From Acidobacteriota bacterium (lineage in GTDB: Bacteria; Acidobacteriota; Thermoanaerobaculia; Gp7-AA8), in the NCBI GenBank assembly GCA_003223645.1, contig QHVT01000036.1, positions 1 through 38,867 of the forward strand: DNA of 38,867 nucleotides. Reading direction: 5' to 3'. Made by a program: the position numbers and the translations under genes. The notes beneath the pieces are model-generated. The model was given only the letters and a program-made list of their open reading frames with translations. It did no database searches and was not told the DNA's origin. This document shows, one piece after another, positions 221 to 31,910 of the stretch (position 1 is the first letter of the stretch; the number at the start of each line of letters is the position of its first letter).

Positions 221-1609
221 TCATCCCTTGATCACCGCAATCGGCCGGAACCGCGCCACTCTCTTCGCGATCCCCGCCTGCGCGACGACGTCGATCACCT
301 GATCGATGTCCTTGTACGCCTCCGGCGCCTCCTCGACCAATCCTTTCGACGATCCCGCCTCGGCCACGATGCCTTGCGCGCGCAGTCGCGCGCGCAGTTC
401 GTCGGCATTGATCTCCTGCCGCGCTTTGGTGCGCGACATCACCCGCCCCGCGCCGTGGCAACTGGAGCCGAAGCTCTGTTGCATCGCTGCTTCGGATCCG
501 ACGAGGAGGTACGACGCGGTGCCCATGCTTCCTGGAATCAACACGGGCTGGCCGGGAAACGCTCGCGTCGCGCCTTTGCGATGCACGATGACTTCGCCGA
601 CGTCGGGGTAGCGCTCGACTTTCGCCACGTTGTGCGCGACGTCGTAGATGATGTCGATGCGATCGTCTTCGAGCTCGTGCAGCCAGGCGCGGCGGATGCC
701 GGCGGTGATGATCTGCCGGTTCGCGAACGCGAAGTTCGCGGCAGCGGACATCGCCGACAAGTAGTCTCGTCCCTCGGGCGACGCAACCGGCGCGCAGGCG
801 AGCTCGCGGTCGGGCACGACGATGTGGTGCGCGGCCATCGCCTTGGTCATGACGCGCAGCGAGTCGGTGGCGACCTGGTGCCCGAGGCCGCGGGAGCCGG
901 TGTGGATTTGAAAGACGATCCCGCCCTTGAAGATGCCGAAGCGCTCCGCTTCTTCTTCGTCGTAAATGGTCTCGACGCGATCGATCTCGACGAAGTGATT
1001 GCCGGAGCCGATGGTTCCGAGCTGATCGTGCCCGCGCTGGCGCGCGCCGGTCGACACGCTTTCGGGATCGGCGCCGTCGAGTCGTCCACCCGATTCGATG
1101 TGGCGCAGATCGTCCTCGTTGCCGAATCCCATTTCGACGGCGCGCTTCGCGCCGTCGCGCAGCACGAGGTCGAGATCCTGACCCTTCAGTCTGACGCTGC
1201 CGCCCCGGCCGACGCCGGACGGCACTTCGCGAGCGATCGAATGCGTGAGCTCGGGGATCAGCGGCCGCACTTCGCCGAAGGACATTTGCGAGCGCAGCAA
1301 ACGTACGCCGCAGTTGATGTCGTAGCCGATGCCGCCGGGCGAGATCACGCCGTCCTTCGCATCGATCGCGGCGACGCCGCCGATCGGAAAGCCGTAGCCC
1401 TCGTGCACGTCGGGCATCGCGATCGCGTACTTCCGGATGCCGGGAAGCGTCGCGACGTTGACGAGCTGCTCGAGCGAGCGGTCGCGCAGGATCGAGTCGA
1501 GCATCGCCTCGCTCGTGTACACGCGCGCCGGCACGCGCATGTCGGCGCGAAACGTGCGCGGGATCTCCCAGAGGTGATCGTGGATTTTCTCGAGATCAGT
1601 TTTCCGCAT
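221..1609 (-). CDS. rtcB: RNA-splicing ligase RtcB
   Basis: GTP- and Mn2+-dependent RNA ligase that joins 2',3'-cyclic phosphate (or 3'-phosphate) ends to 5'-OH ends in tRNA splicing or RNA repair; cytoplasmic. The 462-residue product carries the family signatures: MPDVHEGYGFPIGG (about 65-78), GIGYDINCG with the metal-binding Asp97 and Cys100, GSGNHFVEI (about 201-209), IHTGSRGLGHQ (about 235-245) and SCHGAGR around 383-389, whose His is the expected guanylylation residue. I start it at the ATG at 1609. The frame stays open for 60 more codons upstream, but those are translated palindromic repeat (Arg/Pro/Gly-rich) and do not belong to the family. It is the last gene of a minus-strand group behind archease, its known activating partner, so an RNA repair/ligation unit is likely. 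High confidence. Confidence 0.97.
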   Translation of the reverse strand: MRKTDLEKIHDHLWEIPRTFRADMRVPARVYTSEAMLDSILRDRSLEQLVNVATLPGIRKYAIAMPDVHEGYGFPIGGVAAIDAKDGVISPGGIGYDINCGVRLLRSQMSFGEVRPLIPELTHSIAREVPSGVGRGGSVRLKGQDLDLVLRDGAKRAVEMGFGNEDDLRHIESGGRLDGADPESVSTGARQRGHDQLGTIGSGNHFVEIDRVETIYDEEEAERFGIFKGGIVFQIHTGSRGLGHQVATDSLRVMTKAMAAHHIVVPDRELACAPVASPEGRDYLSAMSAAANFAFANRQIITAGIRRAWLHELEDDRIDIIYDVAHNVAKVERYPDVGEVIVHRKGATRAFPGQPVLIPGSMGTASYLLVGSEAAMQQSFGSSCHGAGRVMSRTKARQEINADELRARLRAQGIVAEAGSSKGLVEEAPEAYKDIDQVIDVVAQAGIAKRVARFRPIAVIKG

Positions 1610-1758: not shown

Positions 1759-2157
1759 TTAGATGTCGAACACTAGCATCGTCGTCCACTCGTCGCCGGT
1801 CTTATGCACTTCGGCTTCGTGGTACGTCACGGCTTTCACGTCTTCGTCGAACGTTGCCGACGCGAATCCGCTCAGCGTCGCTTCGCACGAGGTTGCATCG
1901 AGGCGCGTGAAGTGCGCGGCGTCGAACATCTCGTGCGCGACGTGCGCGCGATGGAGGACTTCGTTGAGGAAGTCAACGAGGAGCGACGTCGTGTCGGCGG
2001 CTTCGTGCACAACCACGCTGTGCTCGACGCGCGTTTCGCCCGGCTGCGCGTGCATGACGGCAAACATGCCGCGCATCGCGTCGGCGAACAACTCTTGGAG
2101 CGACGAGGCGCGGACGCGCAGCCGCACGTCCGCAATGTGATCGATGATCTCGAACAC
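1759..2157 (-). CDS. archease, RtcB-activating protein
   Basis: Archease promotes guanylylation and multiple turnover of RtcB and alters its NTP specificity. The 132-residue product has the family's N-terminal Asp/His pattern (IIDHIADVRL, residues 4-13), the helix SLQELFADAMRGMF, and the characteristic end VKAVTYHEAEV...VFDI, giving the full usual length. The start is GTG at 2157, lying 3 nt after the TAG that ends the rhodanese frame (2161-2163). That spacing suggests translational coupling to the upstream gene. It is separated from rtcB downstream by two palindromic repeats. High confidence. Confidence 0.93.
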   Translation of the reverse strand: MFEIIDHIADVRLRVRASSLQELFADAMRGMFAVMHAQPGETRVEHSVVVHEAADTTSLLVDFLNEVLHRAHVAHEMFDAAHFTRLDATSCEATLSGFASATFDEDVKAVTYHEAEVHKTGDEWTTMLVFDI

Positions 2158-2160
2158 CGT

Positions 2161-2751
2161 CTACTTCAAGCCGGTGCCGACGGGATATCCGAGGCGGCGC
2201 CACGACTCGAAACCGCCGTAGAGAGCTTCGACGTTGGTGAACCCGTTGCGCTTGAGGATGAGCGCCGCACCGGCGCTCGATTCTTCGGCGGGTCACGTAC
2301 AGTACGTGACGATCGGTTTCCCTTTCGGCAGCGACGACATCTCCGTTTCGATGCTCGCCAGCGGAATGTTCATCGCGCCTTCGATGTGCGCGGTCTGATA
2401 GGACGCCGCCGGCCGCACGTCAATGACTGTCACCTGACCGGCCTTCATCTTCTCGCGCAAGTCCTCGACCGCGATGCGCGGGATCGACGCGTTCGATTGT
2501 TCCTGCGGAGGCGCGACCGAAACCGGAAGCGGCGTTGTGCCCGTCGCGCTGGTCGACGTCGCGCTGGTCGCGCTCGTCACCGGCGCGGGTGTCGTCATCG
2601 TCTCCGTCGTCGCGACCGGCGCGGGCGTTTCCACCGTGCGCGTCAGCGCCCAAACGACCAGCCCCGCCACGACCAAACCGCCGATTGCGAGCAGTGCGAG
2701 CGTGGCGCGGGAGGAGGAGGGCGGTGGTGGTGGTTCAGGTTTCTTCGGCAT
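2161..2751 (-). CDS. membrane-anchored rhodanese, candidate selenoprotein (UGA codon 153)
   Basis: Seen: residues 1-15 are a Pro/Lys-rich head, about 16-38 a transmembrane helix, about 40-88 a Thr/Ala/Pro linker, and 90-196 a rhodanese domain (VTVIDVRPAASYQTAHIEGA, then IVTYCT). Codon 153 is TGA (2293-2295). Reading continues in the same frame as PAEESSAGAALIL, GFTNVEALYGGFESW, RRLGYPVGTGLK and stops at TAG 2161-2163, 3 nt before archease. Rhodaneses of this type commonly read YCxCPxE, so TGA stands at the second Cys, giving C-x-U. A stem-loop fitting a bacterial SECIS follows the TGA. Known: rhodaneses transfer sulfane sulfur through an active-site Cys. Inferred: a selenoprotein anchored in the membrane with its domain outside. 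The alternative is a point nonsense mutation or base error. Confidence 0.72.
2260..2278 (-). promoter_or_regulatory. SECIS-like hairpin downstream of in-frame UGA
   Basis: On the minus-strand transcript a perfect 7-bp stem, GAGCGCC / GGCGCUC, encloses the five-base loop GGUGC. There are 14 nt between the UGA (2293-2295) and the stem, and 21 nt between the UGA and the loop. In E. coli fdhF the loop starts with GGU about 18 nt after UGA, so geometry and loop bases agree with SelB recognition. The assignment is inference from this fit; GC-rich coding DNA can form such stems by chance. Confidence 0.55.
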
Positions 2752-2871: not shown

Positions 2872-2906
2872 ATAGTCGTCACTCCGTCGCCACATAGTCG
2901 TCACTC
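2864..2906. repeat. 22-bp tandem duplication at element edge
   Basis: GTCGCCACATAGTCGTCACTC occurs at 2864-2884 and again at 2886-2906. The first copy includes the right end of the family A element; the second runs into the last codons of the aminotransferase. It may be a duplication created by insertion or slippage next to the palindrome. Confidence 0.8.
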
Positions 2907-4109
2907 TCGCGCTACTCGCGACACAGCCTCCACCAATCTCTGCACGTCCTCCTCCGTCGTGTAGCACGCGCATCCGACGCGCAGCAGCGCGTCGACGTTC
3001 AATCGCTCGCACACCGTCGCGGCGTAGAAGTCGCCGCTGCTCGCGAACAACGCTTCGTTCGCTAACGCGCGCGCGACGTCGTCGGCGTGTATGCCGTCGA
3101 TGGTGAAAGAGATCGTGGGCGTTCGCGGGGCGGTGGGCGGCGGGCCGTACAAGCGCACGCGTTTCATCGTCGACAGCGCGTCCCACAACATCCGCGTGAA
3201 GCGCGCGCCTGCGGCGTGCGCGCTCCCGAAAAAGTCCGCGAGTTTTTCCCGGCGCGTCGCGCCATTGCCGAACGACGCGAGGAATTCGACGGCGGCCGCT
3301 GCGCCGGCGATGCCTTCGTGGTTTTGCGTCCCGGTCTCGACGCGCTCGGGTGCGTAGTCGGGCGCGGGCGCGAGTTTGGGAAACGGGATGGTGTCGAGCA
3401 ATTCGAATTTGCCCCAGAGGACGCCGATGTGCGGGCCGTAGAACTTGTACGCGGAACACGCGAGGAAGTCGCAGCCGATCTCTTTCACGTCGATGAGCGC
3501 GTGCGGCGCGTAGTGGACGGCGTCGACGAAGAAGAGCGCGTTTGCGTCGCGCGCGATCTTGCCGATTCGCTGGAGGTCGTTGATCGTGCCGAGCGAATTG
3601 GACGCGGCGCCGGCGGCGATCAGTTTCGTTCGATCGGTGACGAGGGATTCGAGTTGCTCGTAGTCGAGTTGTCCGCTGTCGCAGTTCATGCGCGCGGTGC
3701 GGACGACGATGCCGCGGTCGACGGTCAGCGCGCGCCACGCATCGACGTTGGCGTGATGATCGAGCTCGGTGACGATCACTTCGTCGCCTTCGTTCCACAT
3801 CCGGCCTAACGCGCGGCCGAGGTGGAACGTGAGGGTGGTCATGTTCGCGCCGAAGGCGATCTCGGTTGGCGATCCATTGATGAAATCGGCGACCGTTTCG
3901 CGCGCGGACAAAAGGATCGCATCCGTCTCCGCACTCGTCGGATAGTGCCAGTGCGTGTTGGCGTTGTGATGAAAAAGGTAGTCGTTCATCGCGTCCGCAA
4001 CCTGCCGCGGCGCCTGCGTTCCGCCGGGCGCGTCAAAGTACGCCACGAGCTTGCCGTTGTGCACGCGCGCGAGCGCGGGGAAGTGTTTGCGGATAGCGTC
4101 TGTGCTCAT
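2901..4109 (-). CDS. class V aminotransferase, cysteine-desulfurase-like
   Basis: PLP enzyme of the NifS/SufS fold, closest in appearance to the 'cysteine desulfurase-like, VC1184' group. Seen (402 residues from the ATG at 4109): the N-terminal YFDAPGGTQAP, TELDHHANVDAW, the cofactor Asp/His pair in FFVDAVHYAPH (about 196-199), and the Schiff-base lysine in SAYKFYGPHIGVLWGK (about Lys222). A C-terminal LRVGCACYTTEED supplies Cys residues where desulfurases carry theirs. The 21 codons upstream of 4109 are translated repeat and are excluded. It could desulfurate cysteine or act as a selenocysteine-lyase-like or beta-lyase enzyme; the sequence does not decide. A downstream rhodanese is a natural sulfur acceptor, but a 149-bp gap with a palindromic element separates them. 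Confidence 0.85.
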   Translation of the reverse strand: MSTDAIRKHFPALARVHNGKLVAYFDAPGGTQAPRQVADAMNDYLFHHNANTHWHYPTSAETDAILLSARETVADFINGSPTEIAFGANMTTLTFHLGRALGRMWNEGDEVIVTELDHHANVDAWRALTVDRGIVVRTARMNCDSGQLDYEQLESLVTDRTKLIAAGAASNSLGTINDLQRIGKIARDANALFFVDAVHYAPHALIDVKEIGCDFLACSAYKFYGPHIGVLWGKFELLDTIPFPKLAPAPDYAPERVETGTQNHEGIAGAAAAVEFLASFGNGATRREKLADFFGSAHAAGARFTRMLWDALSTMKRVRLYGPPPTAPRTPTISFTIDGIHADDVARALANEALFASSGDFYAATVCERLNVDALLRVGCACYTTEEDVQRLVEAVSRVARE

Positions 4110-4132
4110 TGCGCGCGCATTCTCGCTCAAAT

Positions 4133-4198
4133 GGTTGCGCGGTTGCGCGGTCGCGCGGTTGCTCGGCGTCACTGCTCAACCGCGTAACCGCGCAACCG
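4133..4198. repeat. GGTTGCGC tandem/inverted repeat
   Basis: Tandem GGTTGCGC units on the left face an inverted set (AACCGCGTAACCGCGCAACC) on the right, giving an imperfect 66-bp palindrome between the divergent aminotransferase and lysS genes. Any promoters for both genes must lie within or beside it. Confidence 0.85.
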
Positions 4199-16139: not shown

Positions 16140-17414
16140 ATGAAACGCGCAATCACGCTGCTCGCTCTGCTCGTCACCGTCCATGTGGGTGCCGCTGCCC
16201 CCAGCGGCACCGCGACCGCTGAGGGCAGCGGTCGCCACATCGATCGCATCCTCGCCGAGGTGCCGCTGATCGACGGTCATAACGATCTGCCGTGGGAGTA
16301 TCGCGATCGCGTGAAGAATCATCTCGCGCAGCTCGACATCGGGCAGGATCAGTCGCACCTCGCGAAGCCGCTGCACACCGACATCGCCCGCCTGCGACAA
16401 GGCCGCATCGGCGCGCAGTTCTGGTCCGTCTACGTTCCCGTCGAGTTGAAAGGTGCGGACGCGGTCCTCACGACGATGGAACAGATCGACGTGGTCCATC
16501 GCCTCGCCGCGACGTACCCCGATGTGTTCGAGCTCGCCTACACGGCCGACGACATCACGCGCATTCACAAGAGCGGCAAGATCGCGTCGTTAATCGGGAT
16601 GGAGGGCGGCCATTCGATCGACAACTCGCTCGCCGCGCTGCGCGAGTTTTATCGCGCCGGCGCGCGCTATATGACGATCACGCACACCGCCAGCACCGCG
16701 TGGGCCGATTCCGAAAGCGGCGCGCCGCTCCACAACGGGCTCACGCCGTTCGGCAAGATCGTGATCGGCGAGATGAATCGCCTCGGCATGCTCGTCGATC
16801 TCTCCCACGTCTCGCCGAAAACGATGCAGGACGTCCTCGACGTGTCGCTCGCGCCGGTGATCTTCTCGCACTCTTCGACGCGCGCTCTCGTCGATCATCC
16901 GCGCAATGTTCCGGACGATGTGTTGCAGCGACTGAAGGACCTCGACGGCGTGGTGATGGTGAGCTTCGTTCCCAGCTTCGACTCCGACAAGGCACGTCTG
17001 CACAGCGCGGATCAATCCGCTGAAGAGGCGCGGTTGAAAGACCTGCTTCGCGGCGATCCGCAAAAGGTGAAGGAGGCGCTCGCGAAGTGGAACGCCGCGA
17101 ATCCCGGGCCGCGCGCGACGATCGCCGACGTCGCCGATCACATCGAGCACGTGATGAACGTCGCCGGCGTCGATCACGTCGGCATCGGCGGAGACTTCGA
17201 CGGCATCACGTCGACGCCGGCCGGACTCGAGAGCGTCGCCGACTATCCGAAGCTGTTCGAAGAGCTGATCCGGCGCGGACACAGCGACGACGACTTGAAA
17301 AAGCTCGCCGGCCTGAACGTGCTGCGCGTGATGAAGAAAGCGGAAGCGGTGGCGGCGCGCCTGCAGAAAGAGCGGCCGCCGGCGGACGCGCTGATCGGTG
17401 AAGTGGACAAGTAA
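16140..17414 (+). CDS. membrane dipeptidase, peptidase family M19
   Basis: Secreted zinc dipeptidase of the renal-dipeptidase family. 424 residues from the ATG at 16140: a signal peptide (MKRAITLLALLVTVHVGAAA), then the metal-binding DGHNDLPW (His47, Asp49), GMEGGHSIDN with the bridging Glu, VDLSHVSPKT and IFSHSSTRAL with metal His residues, and GIGGDFDG with the late Asp. Residues 16-33 (ending GTATAEGSGRH) are translated from a 54-bp family A palindrome, so the signal-peptide end and mature N terminus are repeat-derived. It probably acts in the periplasm on dipeptides or beta-lactam-like substrates. Confidence 0.94.
   Translation: MKRAITLLALLVTVHVGAAAPSGTATAEGSGRHIDRILAEVPLIDGHNDLPWEYRDRVKNHLAQLDIGQDQSHLAKPLHTDIARLRQGRIGAQFWSVYVPVELKGADAVLTTMEQIDVVHRLAATYPDVFELAYTADDITRIHKSGKIASLIGMEGGHSIDNSLAALREFYRAGARYMTITHTASTAWADSESGAPLHNGLTPFGKIVIGEMNRLGMLVDLSHVSPKTMQDVLDVSLAPVIFSHSSTRALVDHPRNVPDDVLQRLKDLDGVVMVSFVPSFDSDKARLHSADQSAEEARLKDLLRGDPQKVKEALAKWNAANPGPRATIADVADHIEHVMNVAGVDHVGIGGDFDGITSTPAGLESVADYPKLFEELIRRGHSDDDLKKLAGLNVLRVMKKAEAVAARLQKERPPADALIGEVDK
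16185..16238. repeat. palindromic repeat family A, short in-frame form (54 bp) in dipeptidase
   Basis: GTGGGTGCCGCTGCCCCCAG ... GCTGAGGGCAGCGGTCGCCAC. It is exactly 18 codons, beginning on a codon boundary (Val16). It has the two outer hairpins of the long form without the central one. The same length and frame occur at 29013-29066. Confidence 0.92.
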
Positions 17415-19747: not shown

Positions 19748-19842
19748 GTGGCGACCGCTGCCCTCAGCGGTCGCGCGGCGCGAAAGCGCCGCTGGCGCCG
19801 CCATTAGGCGGCGCCGTGACCGCTGAGGGCAGCGGTCACCAC
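19748..19842. repeat. palindromic repeat family A, long form (95 bp)
   Basis: Outer arms GTGGCGACCGCTGCCCTCAG... and the complement ending GGTCACCAC, with a central GGCGCGAAAGCGCC / GGCGCCGCC hairpin. It lies between the convergent kinase and aldolase genes and may terminate both transcripts. Confidence 0.92.
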
Positions 19843-26393: not shown

Positions 26394-26487
26394 GTGGCGA
26401 CCGCTGCCCTCAGCGGTCGCGGCGGCGCGAAGCGCCGCTGGCGCCGCCACAGGCGGCGCTGTGACCGCTGAGGGCAGCGGTCACCAC
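26394..26487. repeat. palindromic repeat family A, long form (94 bp)
   Basis: Outer arms GTGGCGACCGCTGCCCTCAG... / ...GGTCACCAC with a central GGCGCGAAGCGCCGCTGGCGC CGCC hairpin. It separates the convergent methyltransferase and PATAN genes. Confidence 0.92.
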
Positions 26488-28979: not shown

Positions 28980-31910
28980 ATGCGCTTGCCCGCCCTCGCC
29001 GCCTGCATGCTTGTGGCGACCGCCGCCCTCGGCGGTCACGGTGCCGCTGAGGGCAGCGGCACCCACAACGGCTTCCCGCTCGTGGAGACGTTCGGCGCGA
29101 AACTGCACCAGGGCGGCACGCAGGTGTTCGGCGCGGCGCAGGACGCGAACGGCGTGCTGCGATTCGGCGCGCTGCGCGGTGTGATGAGCTACGACGGCGC
29201 GTGGTGGCGGACGACCGCGCTGCCGAACGACTCGGCGGTGTTTGCGGTGGCGACGCGCAGCGGTCCGGAGATCGCCATCGGCGCGGGCGACGAGCTGGGA
29301 TGGATGGCACCCGATGCTTCCGGCGAATTGAAATACCACTCGCTCGTCGCGCAATTGCCCGCGGACGCGCGGGACGTCGGCGACGTGCGCGGCGTCTGCG
29401 CGACGCCGAGCGCGTTCGTGTTCGTCGCGGAGCGCGAGGTCGTCGCCTGGAGCGGCGGCGCGCCGCGCGTCGTCGCACAACTCCCCGCGTCATCGATCGC
29501 GCGCCGCTGCTTCAACGTCGGGCGCATGGTCTACATCACCGGCAGCGAAGGATTGCATCGACTCGATCCCGCATCGATGACCGTCACGCGCGCGGGATTC
29601 GACGGAAAGACGATCGATCTCGTCGTGCCGTTCGACGACACGCGCGCGATCGTCGCCGTGCGCGGCGAAGGATTGCCGCTCTCCGACGGAACGCCGTTTG
29701 CGCCGGACGCAAATCAATGGCTCGGCACGAGACTCGTGACCGCGGGCTGCCGATTGCGCGACGGACGCTTCGTCATCGGCACGCGGCAGGACGGCGTGCT
29801 GCTGCTCGCGCAAAATGGCGCGGTCGAACAGCGGCTCGATGACGCCGCCGGCTTGCCGATGGCCGTGCTCGCGCACGCGTTCGAAGACCGCGAAGGCTCG
29901 CTCTGGCTCGCGTATCACGGGCCGATCGTGCGCGTCGATCTCGCGACGCCGGTTTCGCTGATCGATACGCGCAGCGGCTTGCGCGGATTCGTCAATGCGA
30001 TCAGTCGCGATCGGGGACGATTGTGGATCGCCACGTCGTACGGACTCTATGTCAGCGACGGATCGCTTCCCGTCCGCCTCGTCGACGGAGTCCCCGCAAC
30101 GGCGTGGTGCACGCTGCCGCTCGATGATGATGCGCGAACGACGAGTCGTGGAGCGGCGGCCGCTTCGGCCGCCGGCCGGCCGCGAGAACCGGCGCCCGAA
30201 GCGGGCGCCGCTCCACCAGAATCGCTGCTCGTCGGCACGAGCAGCGGCGCGTATTTCGTCGACGCGAATCTGCACGCGCGCGCAATCGCAGGCACGGAAG
30301 ACCTCGTCGTCTACGAAGTCTTCCAGCCGAAGAGCGATCCGTCGATTGTCTGGCTCAGCCTGCGAAAAGGAATGGGACTGCTGCGCCGCACGAACGACGG
30401 CTGGCGCTACGACGGCATCATCGCCGGAACGCCGCCGCACGCACGGTCGATCGTCGAGGATGTTGTCGGCGACAAGGGCGCGCTCTGGATCGGATCGACG
30501 TTCGACGGCGTGGTGCGGATGGAGTTCAAAGACGGCGTCGCGCACACGCAGTCGATCCGCGGCGGAATCGAAGCGCACGTCATGAAGGTCGGCACTCGCA
30601 TCCTCGCCTCCCTCGGCGACGAAGGCATCTTCCTCCTCGGCCCGCGCAATCAACTGATCCGTGACGCGCATCTCTCCGCAATCGCGGGCAACGCCTACCA
30701 CCTGGCCGAAGACGCGCGCGGCGATCTCTGGTTCAACACCGCGCCGCCGCGCGTGCTCCCGCGCGGCAAACGCGAAGCCGTGCCGCTCGTCGCCATCGAT
30801 CCGGCGAAGATCATCGTCATGAGCGCGGACGAAGACGGAGTGTGGTTCGGCAGTGACCAGGGCGTGTACCGCTTTACCACCAGCGGCGCATTGCCCGCGA
30901 CGCCGCAGCCCGCGCCGCTCATCGCGCGCGTCGCCCTCGCGAACGGCGCACGCGTCACCGCGCCGCTCGCGCATTCGTTCGGACGCCTGCGCATCGAATT
31001 CGCGCCGGCGTCGTATCGTCCCGGCGTCACCTATCAATATCGACTCGATCCCGTCGACGCATCATGGAGCGCGTGGGCGCGCGAGCCGTTCGCCGACTTC
31101 ACCTCGCCCGGTCCCGGCGACTACACGTTCCGCGTCCGCGCGCGCAGTTCGTGGGGCAGCGTCAGCGACGAAGCCAGTGCCGTCTTCACCGTCCTGCCGC
31201 CGTGGTATCGCACACGATGGGCGATGCTGCTGTGGATCGTCGTCGCCGCGCTGCTCATCTACGCGATCGTGCGCAACCGAACGACTGCGTTGCGACGCCA
31301 GGCCGCAAAACTGCGCGAGCTCGTCGACGAGCGCACCGACGAACTGCGCCAGGCGAACGCGCAACTCGAACGACTCTCACTCCTCGACGAGCTCACCGGA
31401 ATCGCGAACCGGCGCTACTTCCAGCGCGCGCTGACCGAGGACTGGCAGCTGGCGATGGACGAAGGAAAAATGATCGCGCTCGTGCTGCTCGACCTCGATC
31501 ACTTCAAACACCTCAACGACGAGCGCGGCCACCTCGAAGGCGACGCCGCGCTGGTGAAAGTCGGCCGCTTCCTCTCCCGCATCATCCGCCGAAGCAGCGG
31601 CGACATGCCCTCCCGCATCACCAACATCGTCGCCAGAATCGGCGGCGAAGAATTCGCCGTGATCCTCTCCAACGCCACCATCGCCGAAGCCATGACCACC
31701 GCGGAGATCCTCCGCTCCGGCATCGAGTCCCTCAACATCGGCGTGACCGTCAGTTGCGGCGTCGCCGCCACCCTCCCCACCACCCGCGACGGCGCCAACA
31801 CCCTCGTCGACCGCGCCGACCACGCGCTCTACGCCGCAAAAGCGGCGGGACGGAATTGCGTGCGCGCGGATGACGACAAAGTCCGGAACGCTGCCGTCCT
31901 CGGCGGCTGA
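28980..31910 (+). CDS. beta-propeller/Y_Y_Y sensor diguanylate cyclase
   Basis: 976 residues from the ATG at 28980. Signal peptide (MRLPALAACMLVATAALGG), then a periplasmic region of propeller repeats (about 30-700; DREGSLWLAYHG, KGALWIGSTFDG, DGVWFGSDQGVY), a Y_Y_Y-type beta domain (about 665-745, YQYRLDPVDASWSAW), one membrane helix (about 750-770), a coiled coil (about 775-810) and a GGDEF domain with active-site RIGGEEF. This is the architecture of extracellular sensors that make c-di-GMP. The inhibitory RxxD site appears as RITN, so product inhibition may be lost. Two palindromic elements are read in frame: residues 12-29 (family A, signal-peptide end) and about 390-412 (family D, low-complexity Ala/Pro/Arg). 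Despite them the frame is intact. Confidence 0.93.
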   Translation: MRLPALAACMLVATAALGGHGAAEGSGTHNGFPLVETFGAKLHQGGTQVFGAAQDANGVLRFGALRGVMSYDGAWWRTTALPNDSAVFAVATRSGPEIAIGAGDELGWMAPDASGELKYHSLVAQLPADARDVGDVRGVCATPSAFVFVAEREVVAWSGGAPRVVAQLPASSIARRCFNVGRMVYITGSEGLHRLDPASMTVTRAGFDGKTIDLVVPFDDTRAIVAVRGEGLPLSDGTPFAPDANQWLGTRLVTAGCRLRDGRFVIGTRQDGVLLLAQNGAVEQRLDDAAGLPMAVLAHAFEDREGSLWLAYHGPIVRVDLATPVSLIDTRSGLRGFVNAISRDRGRLWIATSYGLYVSDGSLPVRLVDGVPATAWCTLPLDDDARTTSRGAAAASAAGRPREPAPEAGAAPPESLLVGTSSGAYFVDANLHARAIAGTEDLVVYEVFQPKSDPSIVWLSLRKGMGLLRRTNDGWRYDGIIAGTPPHARSIVEDVVGDKGALWIGSTFDGVVRMEFKDGVAHTQSIRGGIEAHVMKVGTRILASLGDEGIFLLGPRNQLIRDAHLSAIAGNAYHLAEDARGDLWFNTAPPRVLPRGKREAVPLVAIDPAKIIVMSADEDGVWFGSDQGVYRFTTSGALPATPQPAPLIARVALANGARVTAPLAHSFGRLRIEFAPASYRPGVTYQYRLDPVDASWSAWAREPFADFTSPGPGDYTFRVRARSSWGSVSDEASAVFTVLPPWYRTRWAMLLWIVVAALLIYAIVRNRTTALRRQAAKLRELVDERTDELRQANAQLERLSLLDELTGIANRRYFQRALTEDWQLAMDEGKMIALVLLDLDHFKHLNDERGHLEGDAALVKVGRFLSRIIRRSSGDMPSRITNIVARIGGEEFAVILSNATIAEAMTTAEILRSGIESLNIGVTVSCGVAATLPTTRDGANTLVDRADHALYAAKAAGRNCVRADDDKVRNAAVLGG
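29013..29066. repeat. palindromic repeat family A, short in-frame form (54 bp) in GGDEF gene
   Basis: GTGGCGACCGCCGCCCTCGG ... GCTGAGGGCAGCGGCACCCAC, exactly 18 codons starting on a codon boundary at Val12. Same length, frame and location (signal-peptide C-region) as 16185-16238. Confidence 0.92.
30148..30216. repeat. palindromic repeat family D inside GGDEF gene
   Basis: GTGGAGCGGCGGCCGCTTCG ... GCGGGCGCCGCTCCAC, a 69-bp (23-codon) element encoding Ala/Pro/Arg-rich sequence in the propeller region, between strands. Copy of the intergenic element at 23641-23704. Confidence 0.9.

Follow-up and report, generated by a model that had tools for sequence, protein, structure and literature searches.

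A candidate selenoprotein rhodanese with a conserved in-frame UGA and a SECIS-like hairpin in Acidobacteriota

The locus

The window analysed here is a stretch of 38,867 nucleotides, contig QHVT01000036.1 of an Acidobacteriota bacterium (GCA_003223645.1), whose genome assembly comprises 6.38 Mb in 51 contigs and is 96.67% complete. It contains the following features around a rhodanese gene interrupted by a UGA codon:

221..1609, minus strand: RtcB (Pfam PF01139, 531.9 bits on 221-1714); the likely ATG at 1609 was picked by eye, and the mechanical open reading frame starts from 1789
1759..2157, minus strand: archease (Pfam PF01951, 97 bits), with a GTG start (2157) 3 nt past the rhodanese TAG
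2161..2751, minus strand: candidate selenoprotein rhodanese, from ATG 2751 to TAG 2163-2161, 196 residues with UGA read as selenocysteine (Sec)
2194..2469, minus strand: rhodanese domain, residues 95-186 (Pfam PF00581)
2260..2278, minus strand: SECIS-like hairpin GAGCGCC-GGUGC-GGCGCUC with a 7-bp stem and the loop GGUGC at 2271-2267, from folding and conservation
2293..2295, minus strand: UGA codon, putative Sec153 of the YC-T-U motif (YC-T-U-PAEESS), from translation and from the TGA kept in relatives
2299..2301, minus strand: codon of Cys151, invariant in 16/16 alignment rows
2644..2700, minus strand: hydrophobic stretch, residues 18-36, probable membrane anchor (19-residue hydropathy peak of 2.59)
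2901..4172, minus strand: class V aminotransferase, a profile match that also lies upstream of the rhodanese in a genome of the same genus

The rhodanese frame has a single internal stop, the TGA at 2295-2293, which corresponds to residue 153 in the context IVTYCT-U-PAEESSAGAALIL. Two codons before it is Cys151, presumably the catalytic Cys expected of a rhodanese. Between the hydrophobic stretch, which is probably a membrane anchor, and the rhodanese domain sits a linker rich in Pro, Thr and Ser. The read-through protein matches PF00581 with 69.5 bits (cut-off 22.2) over profile positions 2-101 of 102, a complete domain above the gathering score. When the protein is ended at the UGA, the alignment stops at profile position 68 of 102 and scores 47.6 bits. 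The 43 residues past the UGA align to positions 73-101 and on their own reach 17.2 bits, below the cut-off of 22.2. As judged from these profile matches, read-through alone completes the domain. An earlier note on this DNA had described a rhodanese frame complete except for one TGA, placed at the second Cys of YCxCPxE, with a domain continuing to a TAG 3 nt before archease and a 7-bp stem with loop GGUGC 21 nt after the UGA. All of this holds, the hairpin by direct counting at 2278-2260 and the position of the TGA by homologues that carry Cys there.

Two repeats were also observed in the window. The first, a dispersed repeat with the core CTGAGGGCAGCGGTCGCC, occurs at 2782-2869, 16219-16236, 19750-19840, 26396-26485 and 29015-29032, and includes several inverted pairs about 70 bases apart, one of which sits shortly before the rhodanese start. 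Eight copies are present in the window at up to 2 mismatches (0 expected), and the genome holds 103 exact copies compared with 0 for the reversed control. The second, with the core GGCGGGACGCCCGCTCTCC, is represented by three copies at 1623-1758, shortly before the RtcB gene, where 0.01 would be expected; one of the three is inverted.

The archease-RtcB neighbourhood

The gene order aminotransferase V - rhodanese - archease - RtcB is common to the window and G001, the one same-genus genome examined. The two share 57% identity in archease and 77% in RtcB, and the gap between rhodanese and archease is 18 nt in G001 and 3 nt in the window. This order has a bearing on what the candidate selenoprotein might do. 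One proposal is that it serves the RtcB-archease RNA ligase encoded next to it, either as a regulator or by redox protection. The short gaps before archease in both genomes would suit such a role, as would the oxidation-sensitive active-site Cys of human RTCB, which is protected by PYROXD1 (PMC12263435). Among the titles of open papers on archease and rhodanese, none links the two.

The wider distribution of the gene order argues against this proposal. In tblastn searches with the window genes (E <= 1e-6), neither archease nor RtcB was found beside the rhodanese in the other 16 of 18 neighbourhoods, some of which lie on short contigs. These include eight other neighbourhoods of the window's own YCTUPxEESS group and one order-level relative, again with some short contigs (3.9 kb for L065). 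Conservation of the neighbourhood beyond the genus, as a sign of partnership, was therefore not found; among the 18 neighbourhoods the order occurs in the window and G001 only. Moreover, other genes neighbour the rhodanese in relatives. A scan of ten neighbouring genes placed a small cytochrome c gene 3' of it in G005, G014 and G017, which belong to one genus; in G012 and G013 a cation efflux gene takes that place and in G003 and G016 a class I/II aminotransferase, and G012 also has a weak AMP-binding match there. In L041, of the YCTUPNEAS group, there is a weak upstream DedA match (14.6 bits against a cut-off of 236). Location also counts against the proposal. RtcB is a cytoplasmic protein, while the hydropathy profile suggests that the rhodanese is anchored facing outward, and a direct role in RNA ligation is unlikely because of this probable membrane anchor. 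Overall, a protective or regulatory role toward RtcB appears quite improbable.

A related idea, marginally less improbable, is that the UGA lets this genus adjust RNA ligation to the selenium supply, as a switch in which Sec-decoding ribosomes would reach the rhodanese stop and re-initiate at the archease GTG. Were this true, the output of archease and RtcB would drop under selenium shortage. The rhodanese-archease-RtcB operon appears to be an arrangement local to this genus. The suggestion in the earlier note that RtcB and archease provide a new context for selenocysteine is accordingly weaker, because of the 18 neighbourhoods the window's arrangement recurs only in that of G001.

Conservation of the UGA among relatives

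Evidence that the gene encodes a selenoprotein comes in part from its relatives. The rhodanese was sought in a set of 100 related genomes, and 90 of these gave a match (window included in both counts). Among the matches listed, all 53 that bear a TGA, including the window, have it two codons past the active-site Cys, as YCxU. Fifty of these passed a pattern filter for frames (D-[VLIA]-R ... [YFH][CS] plus a G[GFYE]..W signature), and three (L032/L068, L105 and L107) were read by eye. One match, in G018:C1, has two additional TGA codons within the matched stretch. The YCxU proteins fall into the groups YCTUPxEESS, to which the window belongs, YCAUxxEHTSA and YCTUPNEAS, plus a few others. Further motifs were seen in L096 (YCTUPNEASS), L105 (YCTUPHEVSS), L107 (YCTUPNEGSS), L035 (YCTUPNEHSS) and L117 (YCTUPGEGSS), which may be separate selenoprotein branches.

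The in-frame UGA is kept at a site where homologues carry Cys and not Trp. The closest Cys homologues read YCTCPAEESS (L061) and YCSCPAEETS (L027/L064), and a search of database contigs with a query bearing Cys at the Sec site also returned Cys-type patterns. Seven of 13 stop-free loci (L123-L128 and L130) were missed by the frame filter and L129 has Ser; from the Cys-query search, 12 of a further 20 loci were missed by the filter. A poorly resolved tree of 70 domains implies at least 7 changes between Sec and Cys, with 2 independent Sec/Cys contrasts on starred (well-supported) branches, which are too few for a test.

The window's genome (G000) itself encodes a Cys-type paralogue, L122 (G000:C29:379410-379920), with the motif YCACDAEQTSG and a weak match to the hairpin model described below (15.6 bits, E 1.3). 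In two relatives, G006 and G011, the Sec form adjoins a Cys form (L068, L069). Such side-by-side pairs are a natural set for asking what selenium contributes to a rhodanese.

The SECIS-like hairpin

The stem of the hairpin begins 14 nt downstream of the TGA and the loop 21 nt downstream; in E. coli fdhF the loop lies about one codon nearer to the UGA. A 21-base hairpin pattern has one match in the window at up to 3 mismatches, compared with 0.07 expected. Folding of the window's stretch (59 nt) by itself is ordinary, with a z of -1.25 and 23 of 200 shuffles folding at least as well. It is from conservation between species, as read from the aligned genes, and not from single-sequence folding that the non-chance signal comes.

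Specifically, the third bases of four-fold degenerate codons within the hairpin (codons +5 to +11) were equal in 279/282 comparisons among 11 homologues, ten of the window's family (L056 and L058 being from one genome) and one order-level relative. In the same homologues the controls gave 465/915 for the upstream 60 codons, 20/60 for codons +1 to +4, and 23/73 for codons +12 to +18. Across 21 sequences, 91.2% of stem cells were paired, a level reached by 0/500 shuffles, and controls in which the stem was slid gave 32-54%. Three of the 7 pairs had changed on both sides, only mildly above the shuffles, 27/500 of which reach that number. The loop is GGUGC or CGUGC across relatives. With the register assumed here, many YCTUPNEAS relatives form just 3-5 of the 7 pairs.

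The folding energies differ between the two kinds of gene. The mean was -11.2 kcal/mol in 50 Sec genes (-15.5 to -8.1) versus -5.6 kcal/mol in 20 Cys genes (-13.1 to 0), with a rank test p of 3e-9 that is uncorrected for shared ancestry; three rows with G and single rows with S, A and R at the Sec site were excluded. The closest Cys homologues have no stable stem (-4.7 kcal/mol for L061, -2.9 for L027/L064), and 2/20 Cys genes are exceptions that fold as well as Sec genes (-13.1 and -9.3 kcal/mol). Taken together, the synonymous sites, pairing and energies point to a hairpin shortly past the UGA that is under selection as RNA.

A model of the hairpin has one significant site in its own genome (E 1.3e-16, the next being 0.68) and therefore reveals no other selenoproteins there. 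In a sample of the phylum it matched 52/199 genomes at E <= 0.01 and, by hand count, 31/199 at E <= 1e-6. Of its nine top matches besides the window, seven show, on the strand that was read, a frame with [YF]CxU, and two of these seven are genes used to build the model; the eighth, L146, is the same place as L101, already read, and the ninth, L151, was left out of the frame reading.

The hairpin also bears on a rival reading in which the TGA genuinely ends translation or arose as a nonsense mutation, so that the gene would be decaying or making a truncated protein. The mechanical reading frame does terminate at the TGA, and the truncated part still matches the Pfam Rhodanese profile with the score given above. 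However, other genera retain both the TGA and the frame past it, and the codons of that frame bear the hairpin-specific synonymous conservation, which makes a true stop very unlikely.

Decoding machinery and the genetic code

The genes for selenocysteine decoding, whose presence the earlier note had proposed as a check, are all found in the window's genome above their cut-offs: tRNA-Sec (selC) with 69.9 bits, SelB with 375, SelA with 473.7, and SelD with 373.9. SelD carries one internal TGA in the context GGUACK. The tRNA-Sec model at E <= 0.001 also matches 14/14 control genomes and exceeds its cut-off in 5 of them, so the matches were checked with ARAGORN, which identified the best selC match as tRNA-SeC (tca) and the second match over the cut-off as tRNA-Ser. 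Among the 100 related genomes, window included, SelA matches 97 and is over the cut-off in 93.

Translating the TGA as a residue leaves the frame open whatever that residue is, so UGA could in principle encode a different amino acid, for example Trp, through general reassignment or unprogrammed suppression. Within the window, however, UGA terminates RtcB, the class V aminotransferase and PheS, and therefore the code is not generally reassigned. With a full Sec machinery in the genome and relatives that carry Cys and not Trp at this site, such a reading is extremely unlikely. Least likely of all, to the point of being negligible, is a sequencing or assembly error in a codon that is really TGC or TGT, as the existence of Cys homologues might suggest, since a TGA at the same codon recurs together with the hairpin in independent genomes, G001, G003, G012 and G016 among them.

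A probable selenoprotein and its possible chemistry

Comparison with relatives shows joint conservation of the UGA, the hairpin and the remainder of the domain, and the genome carries the genes for Sec decoding. A pseudogene, a sequencing error and a general reassignment of UGA are very unlikely given the conserved UGA, the sel genes, the synonymous conservation of the hairpin and Cys homologues that mostly have no stable hairpin. The conserved UGA, SECIS-like hairpin and sel genes thus support the earlier proposal of a candidate selenoprotein, and on these genomic grounds 2161..2751 very probably encodes a selenoprotein in which UGA is decoded as Sec.

In the selenoprotein so proposed, SelB acting on the in-frame hairpin would deliver Sec-tRNA to the UGA, and the ribosome would finish a single-domain rhodanese of 196 residues that is anchored in the membrane and has Cys-Thr-Sec as its active-site motif. 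The domain would probably face the periplasm. As in other rhodaneses, Cys151 may accept sulfane sulfur or become oxidised. Sec153 would then resolve Cys151 by forming a Cys-Sec bond, which a reductant of the membrane or periplasm would reopen, so that the protein may transfer or reduce sulfur species outside the cytoplasm. This extracytoplasmic sulfur-handling mechanism, involving Cys151 and Sec153, is offered tentatively, as a possibility somewhat short of even. The cytochrome c neighbours in one genus would be compatible with a route for sulfur or electrons outside the cytoplasm, though they do not demonstrate one. An AlphaFold2 model with Cys replacing Sec has a mean pLDDT of 95.3 and a rhodanese fold, and the nearest solved chain is 3nhv_D (TM 0.88).

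Comparison with known systems

The motif C-x-U within a rhodanese domain, which the predicted protein possesses, is not new, contrary to the earlier claim. It is in print as 'Rhodanese-like domain-containing protein form 3' (NF041203, CxU, TKB26178.1; PMC13188914), and TKB26178.1 is also listed with CxU in PMC9312934. In the openly available papers that were searched, including passages of PMC1794560, PMC12013277 and PMC5029168, no description of the present branch was found, subscription journals lying mostly outside this scope.

Other known rhodaneses are more distant. The Sec rhodanese forms 1, 2 and 4 share the domain and Sec but have different Sec motifs (UxxS, UxxG; PMC13188914). TsoB (NF045694) likewise has a rhodanese domain with Sec but a different motif, UxxxxU (PMC13188914), and its model gives the window protein 28.3 bits against a cut-off of 805. 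Among single-domain rhodaneses, BH2092 of Bacillus halodurans (3nhv) is structurally similar (TM 0.88, rmsd 1.8 over 108 columns, profile E 4.5e-18), with 36% identity and listings that give it no selenoprotein description. With GlpE (NF001195) and PspE (NF007627), which are single-domain rhodaneses too, the window protein scores 55.1 and 33.2 bits respectively, both below the cut-off of 102.

The closest likeness is to NF041203, rhodanese_LYCAU ('rhodanese-related (seleno)protein'), the best NCBIfam match, which shares the rhodanese domain and a Sec two residues past the active-site Cys. The window protein scores 87.4 bits, under the curated cut-off of 115. Compared with the model, and not with its members, it differs in its N-terminal hydrophobic anchor and Pro/Thr/Ser-rich linker. 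Eight further proteins that were tested, including one Cys form, likewise have NF041203 as their best model, and all nine score 63-87 bits against 115. Because NF041203 is the best model and yet the scores fall below its cut-off, the branch would appear to work like the known kind while failing that model's rule. Because the standard reading ends at residue 152 and the nearest NCBIfam model falls short, these rhodaneses are probably misannotated in many genomes. On the sequence comparisons made here, they form a genuine branch, lying outside the current NF041203 model, within a selenoprotein type that is already known.
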